The notes beneath the pieces are model-generated. The model was given only the letters and a program-made list of their open reading frames with translations. It was not told the DNA's origin and ran no database searches. From NCBI GenBank assembly GCA_002840435.1, contig PHAT01000004.1:124001-188000 (forward strand): DNA of 64,000 nucleotides, read 5' to 3'. Origin of the DNA: Deltaproteobacteria bacterium HGW-Deltaproteobacteria-6. Its GTDB lineage: Bacteria; Desulfobacterota; Syntrophia; Syntrophales; Smithellaceae. A program made the position numbers and the translations under genes. Shown piece after piece: positions 46,456-50,075 of this stretch; position 1 is the stretch's first letter; every line of letters begins with the position of its first letter.

Positions 46456-47121
46456 CTAATAGTTCAGGTTAACCTGAAATCCGATGAGCTGCCTGGTCCA
46501 TTCCCATTGGTGGTTGATGTTTGAGAAATCAACTCGAAAATAAGGGCCAAGGGAAATGTTTTTGTCGATATTCTTGACAATGCCAAATTTTATTCTGTTG
46601 AGCATAACAGCCTTGTCACTGTTTTCGTAGTAAAGCTCCCATCCGATATAGGGCTGAAGAAAAATATCGGGACGGGAAATTCCCATGGTATTCTTTATTC
46701 TGTAATCATTCCAACCCGGTGAAAATCTGTGCTCATAGCGGATCTGATTGGATATTTTGAAACGGTGGAAAGTAGCCGAAGTGTTCATGTTGATGCTGGG
46801 TCTCTGCTCCAGCGACCAGTTGTCAGGATCAATCTTTGAATACCCCTGCTGATAGGAAAGAAGAAACGAAAGCCAGGCAACAGGCGTCTGATAAAGCAGA
46901 CCGGTCGCCCATTCAAAATAATCATAATTAGAGATATCTTTATCGGCCTGGAGAAACACATAGGATACGGTTCGAAATTGATCGTTAATCGTGTAGTTAA
47001 AATTCAGATCCGTGCGCAACGACGTGTCATGGTCTGCGTAAAGGAACGGCGCATTAAGGCAGACCGACAACCCCAGCAAAATTATAATACCGCACGGTAA
47101 AAAGCACTTTTTGGGATCCAC
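46456..47121 (-). CDS. DUF2490-like outer-membrane barrel protein
   Basis: 221 residues from a GTG at 47121 with GGGGAAA upstream. Signal peptide (IIILLGLSVCLNAPFLYA), then alternating strands typical of an 8-12 strand barrel: TDLNFNYTINDQFRTVSYVF, ISNQIRYEHRFSPGWNDYRI and the final GFQVNLNY with terminal aromatic residue for BAM insertion. DUF2490 membership is from overall pattern. It lies 13 bases upstream of the SBP-kinase, so an envelope-sensing link is possible. Confidence 0.75.
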   Translation of the reverse strand: MDPKKCFLPCGIIILLGLSVCLNAPFLYADHDTSLRTDLNFNYTINDQFRTVSYVFLQADKDISNYDYFEWATGLLYQTPVAWLSFLLSYQQGYSKIDPDNWSLEQRPSINMNTSATFHRFKISNQIRYEHRFSPGWNDYRIKNTMGISRPDIFLQPYIGWELYYENSDKAVMLNRIKFGIVKNIDKNISLGPYFRVDFSNINHQWEWTRQLIGFQVNLNY

Positions 47122-47413
47122 AGTTTCCCCATTACATAACTGATTTACAAATTCGCTGCAGGATTAAGATGATGTTATTCATAACCGGCTCTTACTTTGT
47201 GGATGCAACTAATTTTCAGAGACTCTGTTTCTATTTACTGAGTCTTCCTATCATATTTTATTAATAATATCTTGTCTTATCGAGGTCCTCCGCGGTAAGC
47301 CGCAAAAACCGGCGATTTTCGAGAAACAAGATTCATTCCATTACCCGCTCTTCTTCTTTATTGATCTTTTAACCCTGATAACGGCTGACAACACTGAGCG
47401 GCACAGGTGCAAT
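47122..47413. other. Intergenic region before the tRNA-fragment repeat
   Basis: A 290-bp stretch with no coding frame. It precedes the terminator and 54-bp repeat that mark the distal end of the inserted unit. Confidence 0.4.
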
Positions 47414-47446
47414 AAAAAAAGGAGTTAACCACAAATGGCTAACTCC
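47414..47446 (-). terminator. Terminator beside the distal repeat (likely original tRNA-Phe terminator)
   Basis: On the minus strand GGAGTTA (47446-47440) pairs with TAACTCC (47427-47421) and runs into seven T residues (A-run 47414-47420). It sits 4 bp from the tRNA-fragment repeat, in the same relation as the terminator next to the intact tRNA, so it probably terminated tRNA-Phe before insertion. Confidence 0.8.
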
Positions 47447-47450
47447 CTTA

Positions 47451-47504
47451 TATCCATGGTGGGCCAGGGCAGAATTGAACTGCCGACACTCGGATTTTCA
47501 GTCC
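47451..47504 (-). repeat. Distal att-like repeat (tRNA-Phe 3' fragment)
   Basis: A perfect 54-bp copy of 49300-49353. It contains the last 48 bases of tRNA-Phe including the CCA end and the anticodon loop, then diverges (TGACATATAG) where the tRNA continues GATGCTC. It cannot fold as a tRNA, so it is an attachment-site scar. Confidence 0.92.
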
Positions 47505-47544
47505 TGACATATAGCAGTATTCATCGGGCTTTGCGCGTTTTTGC

Positions 47545-47587
47545 GTAGACAAAGCCTTACACGTCCTATATGTTCGTAGACACGTCC
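47545..47587 (+). repeat. Arm-type direct repeats near the distal end
   Basis: GTAGACAAA (47545-47553) and GTAGACA (47576-47582) are repeated, and ACACGTCC occurs at 47559-47566 and 47580-47587, a 21-bp period. The inverted form TTTGTCTAC lies at the other end (49238-49246). They resemble integrase arm-binding sites. Confidence 0.5.
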
Positions 47588-47773
47588 ATTTATATTTATA
47601 TTTGTATGCCTATCGGAATTCTTTACTTTGAGCAATTTGTTCTGAATAGGATATATTTCCATTTGTTTATTTCACCTACAAGTAATCAGAACGGATGAAA
47701 GAAAAACATGGAACATTACCCGTTGAACAGGTGCACTTTAATTCTTCCTCGCACTCATCTCACGCTTAACGAG

Positions 47774-48781
47774 CTATGCTTTCTTACCCTCCAGTTCGGC
47801 AATCCGTGCCTTGAGTTCAATCATTCTCAACTCCCTACCCACGAATACTTTGTTCAGTTCTTCGAGATTGGCTATTCGTAAGTTTATATCATTTTTCAAA
47901 TCTTCATTGAGTTTGAGAATACTTTCTTTTGCCCGCTTGCGGTCGGTGACGTTTCGAATATTACATTGTGCCAAAATTACCCTGTCTGAGAGATATATAT
48001 CTGCATCGATATATTGCCCGGACTTGGTTTTTATTTGAATTTCATTATAGTTCATAAGACTACTATTGACCAAAGCCCGCATGGTCACTTGGACATTACC
48101 CATGTCGAGCAAAACACCGACATTCTGAAGCAGCTTACCCATGCTCTCCTCTTTGGTATAGCCCAACATCTTTTCGGCGGCCGGATTAATGTGGACAATC
48201 TTCCCTTCGAGTTTTTCGATGAGCACGATTGCGTCGCTTGCCGTCTCAAAAAGACGCCTGTAGCGTTCTTCAGACAATATTAACAAATCTTCCAGTTTCT
48301 TACGCTCTGTGATGTCCTCGAAGGCTAGAAGGATCAGTTTGCTATTGATGTCTTTCCGATATATCTGGCGGGCATTGAGCAGCATGATTTTAAGCCCGAT
48401 GTTTTCGAAATTATGAGTAACCTCGAAGTCGTTGAATACTTCTTTTTCAGGCAGGATGTTTTCCAGCAAATGCCGAAGTATGGGGAGATTCCATTGTCCG
48501 TTTCCAAGGTCATAGATAAAATTCCCGATTGTCTTATTAGTATCTTCTTTAAAGGTAGAGTAAAAGCTGTGGTTAGCTGAGATTATCTTCATATCCGCGT
48601 TCAGGACCAACAGGGGATCTCGAACCGTTTCCACAATGCTTTCGGCAAAGCGACGGGCTTCCTTAATCAAAAGCTCAGCAGGTATTTTATTGGCTATTGT
48701 TTTTTTCAGCGCGGCAATTTCCGAGTGCAATTCCGCCAGTTCATGAACCAGTTGCTCTCTCGTTTTCTCATCATCTTTCAT
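47774..48781 (-). CDS. PAS-PAS sensor protein without kinase domain
   Basis: 335 residues from ATG 48781 (AAGGTGAG upstream). An N-terminal coiled coil, PAS1 about 50-165 (VETVRDPLLVLNADMKIISA, LILLAFEDITERKKLE), PAS2 about 170-290 (YRRLFETASDAIVLIEKLEG, HINPAAEKMLGYTKEESMGK, RNVTDRKRAKE) and a C-terminal coiled coil VFVGRELRMIELKARIAELE. No HisKA, HATPase, GGDEF or EAL is present, and the stop is natural. Such PAS-only proteins may act by hetero-oligomerising with kinases. It is the only gene in the tRNA-Phe integrative unit and is AT-rich compared with the flanks. Confidence 0.85.
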   Translation of the reverse strand: MKDDEKTREQLVHELAELHSEIAALKKTIANKIPAELLIKEARRFAESIVETVRDPLLVLNADMKIISANHSFYSTFKEDTNKTIGNFIYDLGNGQWNLPILRHLLENILPEKEVFNDFEVTHNFENIGLKIMLLNARQIYRKDINSKLILLAFEDITERKKLEDLLILSEERYRRLFETASDAIVLIEKLEGKIVHINPAAEKMLGYTKEESMGKLLQNVGVLLDMGNVQVTMRALVNSSLMNYNEIQIKTKSGQYIDADIYLSDRVILAQCNIRNVTDRKRAKESILKLNEDLKNDINLRIANLEELNKVFVGRELRMIELKARIAELEGKKA

Positions 48782-49230
48782 AATCTCACCTTCTGAAATC
48801 TGGATGGGAAACACACCGACTTTCCGTATTGATGTATATAATAAAACTTATCTCTGTTAGCATAGCTTTCACATGAATTGAAATTGGCACGCTTTAAATA
48901 TTAAGCGTTTTCAAATAATTTATTCACATAGAATGAAAATACTTTTCATATAAAATGAAAATATACGAACTTTCCTTTTTCCGATTTCTTATATATTATA
49001 ATAACATAAGTTGTTTTTTTCAATAGAGAAATATTGTAAATGATTATCGTTCGAAATCGCGCATTTTAATAGAGGTTGCAGTTATGTTTGCTACAGGAAG
49101 TAAGTGAAGGAGCACCAAGCACATGATGCGTTTGTCGGAGTTGAGTAACAGGCAATCGGATCATTTATCCGATGTTCTCAAATAAATAGTACAATATTTT
49201 ATGAAAGTTAGGATGATCAATATTATTTGT
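48782..49230. other. AT-rich non-coding part of the integrative unit
   Basis: No integrase or other gene was found in either strand. ATGAAAATA/TTTTCAT motifs recur at about 48930-48965, and a small hairpin CGGAT-AAATG-ATCCG lies at about 49157-49172 on the minus strand. This is where an integrase gene would be expected next to the tRNA. Confidence 0.45.
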
Positions 49231-49267
49231 ATCTACATTTGTCTACAATATATGGGCAAATGTAGAT
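49231..49267 (+). repeat. Inverted repeat at the tRNA-proximal end
   Basis: Perfect 11-base arms ATCTACATTTG (49231-49241) and CAAATGTAGAT (49257-49267). TTTGTCTAC (49238-49246) is the complement of the distal GTAGACAAA. Candidate recombinase or excisionase binding region. Confidence 0.55.
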
Positions 49268-49298
49268 AAAATAAAAACGGGCTCCATTGCTGGAGCCC
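49266..49298 (-). terminator. Terminator directly after tRNA-Phe
   Basis: On the minus strand GGGCTCCA (49298-49291) and TGGAGCCC (49286-49279) form the stem, followed by GTTTTTATTTT. It is inside the inserted unit, 8 bp from the tRNA CCA end. Confidence 0.85.
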
Positions 49299-49299
49299 T

Positions 49300-49353
49300 T
49301 ATCCATGGTGGGCCAGGGCAGAATTGAACTGCCGACACTCGGATTTTCAGTCC
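49300..49353 (-). repeat. Proximal att-like repeat within tRNA-Phe
   Basis: Identical to 47451-47504 over 54 bases. Positions 49306-49353 are the 3' 48 bases of the functional tRNA; 49300-49305 are the adjoining flank. Confidence 0.92.
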
Positions 49354-49381
49354 GATGCTCTACCGACTGAGCTACCGGCCC
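49306..49381 (-). tRNA. tRNA-Phe (GAA)
   Basis: 76 bases. Acceptor GGGCCGG pairs with CTGGCCC (one G-T pair); D-arm GCTC/GAGC; anticodon stem TCGGA/TCCGA with loop CTGAAAA giving anticodon GAA; T-arm GGCAG/CTGCC with TTCAATT; discriminator A and encoded CCA. Its 3' end forms the att-like repeat. Confidence 0.96.
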
Positions 49382-49439
49382 GCCTTGTTGATCCAATCGG
49401 TGAAAAGCACGAAACGTCTATAGAATTAGGTTTCTTTTG

Positions 49440-50075
49440 TCAAGGTATTTTTTGGCCGTCGGCTCCCGTCGTATCTCCGCCGGATGGCGTGTCGGGCTTT
49501 TCGGCCTGCACGGGTGGAATACTGCCGGAAACATTACCCGGCGTCATGGCATCGGACCGCAAGGCGTCGTCAGGAATGGAAATTCCGGCAGCGTTTTCCT
49601 GCTGTTCACGAATAATCACGACGGTACCGGCTATTTTGTCATGCCAGCCCTGCTTCTTTTTGTCGAAAGCGATCCAGATGAAACCAAGAGGCACTGTAAA
49701 TAATAAACTGGAGACCAGGTAACCCGCTGATCTTAAAAAAGCGATACCGAAAGAAATCGGACTGCCGTCGGCGGATACAACCTGCAGACCCAGTAAGTTT
49801 TTGCCGGGGGTCCGGCCGTTCAGACCATGAAAATAGGTAAAATAAATCATATAGAGCAAAAGGTAGAATGCCGTAATAAGAATTCCAAATGAACCAAAAC
49901 GTTCGGGGTCGGTCAGTTGGGCAATCCAGACCTGGTTGTCGCCGGACATCGCGCCTGCAAAATAGGCCGTGCCGGCCACAATCGCCAGAATAATAAAAAC
50001 AACACCGATGATGAATCCGTCAATCATATAGGCGACAAAACGCCGCCAGAACCCCGCGAATTGGTAAGTCGCCAT
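49440..50075 (-). CDS. RDD-family membrane protein
   Basis: 211 residues. RDD motif at the start (FAGFWRRFVAYMIDGFIIGV), two further membrane segments (FGILITAFYLLLYMIYFTYF, SAGYLVSSLLFTVPLGFIWI) with GLNGRTPGKNLLGLQVVSAD and DKKKQGWHDKIAGTVV, which complete the family pattern. A proline/glycine-rich cytoplasmic tail of about 55 residues follows. Function of most RDD proteins is unknown; some act as ion antiporters. It begins 6 bases after the rsmE stop, so it is co-transcribed with prmA and rsmE. Confidence 0.85.
   Translation of the reverse strand: MATYQFAGFWRRFVAYMIDGFIIGVVFIILAIVAGTAYFAGAMSGDNQVWIAQLTDPERFGSFGILITAFYLLLYMIYFTYFHGLNGRTPGKNLLGLQVVSADGSPISFGIAFLRSAGYLVSSLLFTVPLGFIWIAFDKKKQGWHDKIAGTVVIIREQQENAAGISIPDDALRSDAMTPGNVSGSIPPVQAEKPDTPSGGDTTGADGQKIP

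Follow-up and report, generated by a model that had tools for sequence, protein, structure and literature searches.

How did a single sensor gene come to lie between two identical copies of a tRNA 3′ end? The segment in question is 1,849 bp long and lies downstream of tRNA-Phe in the window, i.e. the whole 64 kb stretch of DNA that was analysed. An earlier note, made from the DNA sequence, had proposed either the last remnant of a larger island or a tiny satellite that depends on an integrase elsewhere. The unit is real and mobile in origin; what has to be weighed is the kind of mobile element that it represents.

Repeats and gene content

The following features define the unit:

47451-47504, minus strand: attL-type copy of the repeat, the displaced tRNA-Phe 3′ fragment, identical over 54 bp (repeat search)
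49300-49353, minus strand: attR-type copy of the 54 bp repeat, the 3′ part of the intact tRNA plus 6 bp (repeat search)
49306-49381, minus strand: intact tRNA-Phe (GAA), the integration target (ARAGORN)
47774-48781, minus strand: cargo gene, a 335 aa two-PAS sensor with a charged C-terminal tail (Pfam PAS_4, PAS_8, PAS_9, PAS)

The two direct repeats are 54 nt each and 100% identical, lie 1849 nt apart from start to start, and are situated downstream of the intact tRNA-Phe. Forty-eight of the 54 bases (49306-49353) are the 3′ part of this tRNA, through the CCA end, and the remaining 6 bp are beyond it; as read from the sequence, the repeat block starts in the anticodon stem, with its 5′ strand. 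A 35 nt core of the repeat, with three mismatches or fewer, is confined to these two places in 64 kb, and two or more matches were found in 0/100 shuffles. The displaced 3′ fragment is downstream of tRNA-Phe and in the same orientation. The 3′ part of the intact tRNA-Phe is restored by the element-borne copy, and when the flanks are joined in silico, ARAGORN also finds an intact tRNA-Phe.

Between the repeats there is one convincing gene, that of the PAS sensor; the other listed open reading frame is 89 aa and antisense to it. No integrase, relaxase or transfer genes are found inside the 1,849 bp unit by the open reading frame list and Pfam. The identical repeats with their 48 bases of tRNA-Phe 3′ end, which the earlier note had described, are thus confirmed by the repeat search and ARAGORN, and so is its account of the unit's length, single PAS gene and missing integrase, by the reading frame list and Pfam. 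The PAS gene has 42.5% G+C and the right intergenic part 29.4%, whereas the window as a whole has 50% and genes that flank the unit on its tRNA side have 51-52%. The gene in the left flank, outside the unit, is likewise AT-rich (43.2% G+C), and therefore composition is no marker of the unit.

With 0/54 differences between the repeats, their divergence is bounded at about 5.4% or less (95%), which is below the 10-14% divergence from G012 (86 and 90% identity in the two stretches compared). The recent event that the earlier note had suggested holds only as a bound of this kind, since gene conversion is an alternative to recent integration as the source of repeat identity.

tRNA-Phe loci of related genomes

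A DNA query of 46456-50075 was searched against 59 relatives, and the 3′ side of tRNA-Phe was read in 34 of them (35 loci, 0.9 to 19 kb each). The earlier note had considered a mobile origin doubtful should the unit occupy this locus in all relatives; the unit is not found in the stretches read at the tRNA-Phe loci in 34/34 genomes, the relatives compared being other species. Within these stretches, DNA similarity to the inner 1.8 kb is limited to a segment of 27-47 bp adjoining the tRNA, which is seen in G012, G008 and G010. The PAS protein matches no more than generic PAS domains there, at 28-40% identity, in two genomes (G019 and G005).

Eleven of the 34 genomes have a radical-SAM gene (Pfam) downstream of tRNA-Phe (G004, G006, G008, G010, G018, G020, G021, G024, G026, G028, G030). 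A 3-oxoacyl-ACP-synthase-III-like gene then follows in nine of the 11, and the stretch ends first in G018 and G024; the name of this gene comes from Pfam for G010 and from the similarity of translations for the other genomes. The radical-SAM gene downstream of tRNA-Phe is the probable ancestral state. In the genome of the window the best match to the conserved radical-SAM protein is only 28% identical, and therefore the flank of the unit was remodelled too. As a separate observation, a different two-PAS gene is present between tRNA-Phe and the radical-SAM gene in G010:C7 (L038), with a terminator of the type seen in the window.

Displaced tRNA-Phe fragments without the full tRNA-Phe are present in at least six of the 59 relatives (G034, G057, G032, G051, G056, G037). 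A further match, in G013, is at a contig end and is indistinguishable from a cut tRNA. G037:C1 and G056:C6 (L045, L044), which represent two species within a genus, have degenerate tRNA-Phe 3′ fragments ~0.9 kb from tRNA-Gln, and these are probably an old integration scar. The displaced fragment and its terminator were also considered as a conserved element of its own, and this was rejected, as four of the matches (in G016, G017, G024 and G052) are tRNA-Arg genes whose terminator is similar.

Elements with integrases at tRNA-Phe

In G034, which belongs to the same family, a complete tyrosine integrase gene (Pfam 1.3e-40) ends 6 bp from tRNA-Phe, a TrwC relaxase is present, and the displaced tRNA-Phe fragment is 47.5 kb away. 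In G057, from the same order, the displaced fragment is 38.5 kb from tRNA-Phe and is adjoined by a tyrosine integrase (Pfam 5e-27). The G057 element was considered as a prophage and this was rejected, in that three phage-like-looking open reading frames have no PHROGs match; it is called here an integrase element. Integrase tails or fragments are found at tRNA-Phe in five of the 34 genomes (G007, G016, G031, G005 and G056; tblastn E 4e-9 to 4e-4 with a small database). The match in G015 is weaker (0.11) and was left out of the count. With the G034 and G057 elements and the integrase fragments in five other relatives, tRNA-Phe is a recurrent integration site. The tRNA-Phe loci of relatives can be arranged as a series that starts with the conserved neighbour in place, continues with complete integrase elements and ends with integrase fragments.

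Ends of the unit

The two ends of the unit have terminators, candidate arm-type sites and a short open frame:

47411-47450, minus strand: hairpin resembling a terminator, behind the displaced fragment and outside the unit (sequence)
47545-47551: GTAGACA, one of two candidate arm-type sites at the left end (heptamer counts)
47576-47582: GTAGACA, the other of these two candidate sites (heptamer counts)
49236-49299, plus strand: open frame W(A/T)NVDKxKxGSIxGALI over degenerate arm-type repeats (window, G012, G008)
49240-49246: TGTCTAC, which is GTAGACA on the other strand, right end (heptamer counts)
49271-49298, minus strand: terminator-like hairpin, inside the unit, now behind tRNA-Phe (common to G012, G008, G010)

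The outer hairpin resembles terminators behind the tRNA-Arg genes of relatives (97% over 34 bp in L042) as well as the terminator behind the displaced fragment of G034. It was probably the terminator of the tRNA before integration. On the tRNA side, just inside the repeat, the window agrees with G012 at 44/47 positions and with G008 at 40/47. The sequence TTGTCCACATTTGTCCAC is present just inside this end in G012 and G008 and is degenerate in the window.

The open frame at 49236-49299, when read toward the tRNA, might represent the last codons of a lost integrase, a possible reading that is based on ~17 codons. A frame shared by the three genomes would be in keeping with an integrase gene that formerly extended to the att site, the arrangement seen in G034.

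The heptamer GTAGACA occurs four times in 64 kb, and three of these occurrences are within ~80 bp of the ends of the unit. Any shared 7-mer with this count was found in 251/5000 random pairs of 100 bp windows and in 247/5000 shuffles (about 5%), and the same test with 6- and 8-mers was not significant. It should be pointed out that GTAGACA was picked after inspection, and that the heptamers of G034 and G057 were likewise chosen by eye. GTAGACA is therefore a weakly significant candidate for an arm-type site. In G034, TAGCACA has four occurrences in the 50 kb read, as two pairs 11 bp apart with one near each end; the 100 bp test does not single it out because the far sites lie 137-148 bp inside. 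In G057, the two end stretches read contain GACTACA at two places close to the tRNA and at one close to the fragment. Exact 8 bp repeats with a spacing of 10-12 bp are present behind tRNA-Phe in 8/34 relatives, and by this criterion are absent from the window.

The PAS gene

The PAS gene is listed as 47774-48814 on the minus strand, with a GTG start and 346 aa. The ATG at 48781, which gives 335 aa, is the likelier start codon; it is preceded by AGAAGGTGA and agrees with the N-termini of two relatives. Pfam recognises no output domain in the protein. Over residues 1-307, numbered on the 346 aa reading, it has 61% identity with the N-terminal portion of a G037 PAS-HD protein, and the tail matches the tails of further PAS proteins in that genome, with 77% over 31 residues in one of them. 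The protein looks like a predicted sensor that was cut from a larger protein.

In other genomes, relatives of the gene are located away from tRNA-Phe, and the two that were read are parts of larger signalling proteins. A scan of genome contigs gave 37 loci with relatives of the PAS protein, the best having 56% identity in a Syntrophaceae MAG and the other 36 being weaker (E 1e-8 or worse). A pattern-based scan of viral contigs gave six pattern matches, with 0 confirmed.

An integron-type leader upstream of the PAS gene

The region between the PAS gene and the tRNA-side end contains one further feature:

48960-49035, minus strand: promoter and attI-like leader relic (homology to dispersed leaders in relatives)

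The promoter is TTGAAA-N17-TATAAT at 49023-48995, CGGAAAAAGGAAAGTTCGTATATT is at 48983-48960, and the ATG of the PAS gene is ~180 bp downstream of the leader. This region matches seven loci in seven relatives, at 71-79% over 76-93 bp; the weakest of the seven (E 0.001) is in front of a folD-like gene in G027. The labels folD-like, attI and Pc are ones that we assume from resemblance.

A 32 nt leader consensus, with three mismatches or fewer, is found in 32 of the 155 genomes of the order, with up to nine copies per genome, and the reversed control gave 0. It is found in 0/20 genomes of the genus to which the window belongs, and a search of the window's own genome gave no match. The leader in the window differs at 8/32 consensus positions, mostly at the recombination end, and is the only copy found in its own genome with a 24 nt pattern. 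The GTT core is gone: the window reads GTATATTTTCATTTTA, in contrast to GTATATTAATTGTTA in the other leaders.

The dispersed leaders (L063-L068, L120-L149) stand in front of various genes, and their end is also that of the site which precedes integrases in L126, L132, L081 and L082. An integron-type integrase is in front of the leader in L126 and L132 (Pfam for L132); L081 and L082, which are from the genus of the window and were found through the integrase, have more divergent leader copies. The integrase is beside the leader in two of the 37 loci read (L126 and L132; 35 loci are distinct, and 33/37 have at least 500 bp upstream). In addition, an integrase match is near the leader, by coordinates, in G028:C185 and, as fragments, in G052:C2. 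Genomes G026, G030, G072 and G073 have several leader copies and no integron-integrase match over the cut-off. The four bases that follow the leader conform to RRRY at 11/34 distinct loci, a further locus having been skipped because of an N, and at 10/152 other GTT sites. From these resemblances, the dispersed leader is very probably the attI/promoter region of an integron, mostly orphaned. Truncated-attI cassettes are mentioned in the abstract of a published paper (PMC12901181).

The link between the window leader and the attI/Pc leaders adjacent to IntI is indirect, as it runs via the dispersed leaders. The window copy shares the promoter and the CGGAAAAAGNGAAGTTCGTATATT block with the attI/Pc-type leader of the order, but is without the GTT core and IntI, and the gene starts at some distance downstream. 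There is no IntI gene in the unit, and the best integron-integrase match in the window's own genome is 80 bits, with a cut-off of 265.

Four leaders form a group of their own. In L126, L132, L133 and L134, CCAAGTTGG is present where others have CGAAGTTCG, and the other upstream half-site is seen to be altered as well (uncounted). Both halves of a near-palindrome would thus have changed as a pair, as they might after a shift in recombinase specificity.

Origin of the unit

The earlier note had interpreted the repeats as the scar of site-specific integration into a tRNA, and the side and orientation of the fragment, the anticodon-type boundary, the relatives without the unit and the integrase elements at the same tRNA all support this. 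We consider it likely that the unit is a CIME-like remnant, i.e. a larger island that was internally deleted and kept its attL and attR. A larger element, whether a phage, an IME or an ICE, would have been inserted by a tyrosine integrase in the anticodon-loop region of tRNA-Phe. By this insertion the element's own tRNA 3′ part and terminator would have come to lie behind the tRNA 5′ part, with the original 3′ part and terminator displaced to the far end. A later internal deletion would have removed the integrase and nearly everything else, and what was left would be attL, attR, the integron-type promoter leader and one PAS sensor gene. At present any movement of the unit would require an integrase whose specificity matches its att sites, by cis-mobilisation through accretion, which has been proposed for CIMEs.

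The parent element that we infer was not found, and the terminator/arm pattern is present in only two of 155 genomes (G012 and G008); these 155 represent the order, and a class-level search gave the same 155. A phmmer search with the integrase of G034 detected no integrase behind tRNA-Phe of G012 and G008, over stretches of 14.6 and 15.4 kb. An exact 33 nt tRNA 3′ end has 0 matches in viral contigs. Among phage records 39 have a match, and the 20 listed of these 39 match only the tRNA-Phe part.

A more complex history, in which successive integrations and deletions left layered remnants and the two repeats are the ends of different elements, is unlikely. It would fit with an outer terminator that is unlike that at the radical-SAM sites, and with the lack of a close match to the conserved radical-SAM neighbour in the window's own genome (28% identity at best, as above); because of these two properties, the site appears to have been remodelled besides the unit. 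However, the repeat has only two copies in the window, and the 0/54 differences favour a single event or recent homogenisation.

Less likely still, and quite improbable, is that the 1.85 kb unit is a complete mobile form, a minimal non-autonomous satellite that is excised and integrated in trans by the integrase of another tRNA-Phe element. Such a satellite, still usable, would consist of two att sites, an integron-type promoter and a sensor gene, and would be moved by the tRNA-Phe integrases of visiting elements; if it exists, it is a remarkably small natural integrative unit. Both repeats are perfect, the same arm heptamer may be carried at both ends, and tRNA-Phe is occupied by tyrosine-integrase elements both within the family (G034) and within the order (G057). 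On the other hand, a search with the whole unit found no second repeat in its own genome, and neither there nor in the stretches read at tRNA-Phe of the 34 relatives was there a further copy; a search for the same 1.8 kb unit at other loci had been suggested in the earlier note. The note had also suggested a search for a tyrosine integrase with a matching att site in the same genome. Six tyrosine recombinases are over the Pfam cut-off in that genome, and tRNA-Phe is beside 0/6 of them in the 3 kb loci around them; one of these loci has tRNA-Pro ~25 bp from the integrase reading frame and another has tRNA-Ala. In addition, the viral-contig scan gave no confirmed PAS relative, and the frame resembling an integrase tail points to a deletion. 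Of the two possibilities of the earlier note, the remnant of a larger island is therefore favoured, and the satellite is left without positive support.

Integrase-independent duplication of the tRNA 3′ end, by illegitimate recombination that flanked the PAS gene by chance, would agree with the lack of an integrase inside the unit, but is very improbable given a boundary at the anticodon stem, a fragment that is the 3′ part, downstream and in the same orientation, a different terminator on the tRNA side, and integrase-bearing elements at the same tRNA in relatives.

Comparison with known elements

A CIME is described in a passage of PMC5704250 as an element without integration and transfer genes in which attL and attR are kept. 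The unit is alike in that it retains attL and attR, as predicted from the 54 bp perfect repeats, and has no integration or transfer genes; it is situated at the 3′ end of a tRNA gene and is small (1.85 kb). With respect to the origin of CIMEs from an ICE or IME, the window shows a possible relic of an integrase tail, and the search for a parent yielded none. The unit does not resemble an IME, which has its own integrase and mobilisation functions, as it contains no integrase or relaxase gene.

Part of the description of Islander (PMC4383910) states that candidates without an integrase or under 2 kb are rejected, and lists the anticodon loop among the crossover subsites. To the extent of that description, the unit resembles Islander islands in the tRNA and the displaced 3′ fragment in the same orientation, with an anticodon-type site, but it is without an integrase and is 1,849 bp, and would fail two filters. 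The filters that a standard island finder applies to length and integrase content would thus exclude the unit. In Dehalococcoides, a CIME reading is suggested in a section of PMC3146451 for 15 integrase-less ssrA islands. As presented there, these islands are alike in having direct repeats of an RNA-gene 3′ end that bound units without an integration module; they differ in the tmRNA target, the serine recombinase and the tandem arrays.

The closest comparison within the family is the 47.5 kb island of G034, which has the same tRNA, the same type of boundary and repeats near both ends, as in the unit. It differs in its complete integrase, relaxase, large cargo and other arm sequence. The unit represents a small, clean example of how a tRNA-borne island may decay yet keep both att sites, and if these sites still recombine, it offers a handle on how little DNA an integrative unit needs.

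Other repeats in the window

Elsewhere in the window, the end of a histidine-kinase gene seems to be partly duplicated, with direct repeats at 44267-44379/44747-44859 (75%) and 44379-44418/44869-44908 (93%).
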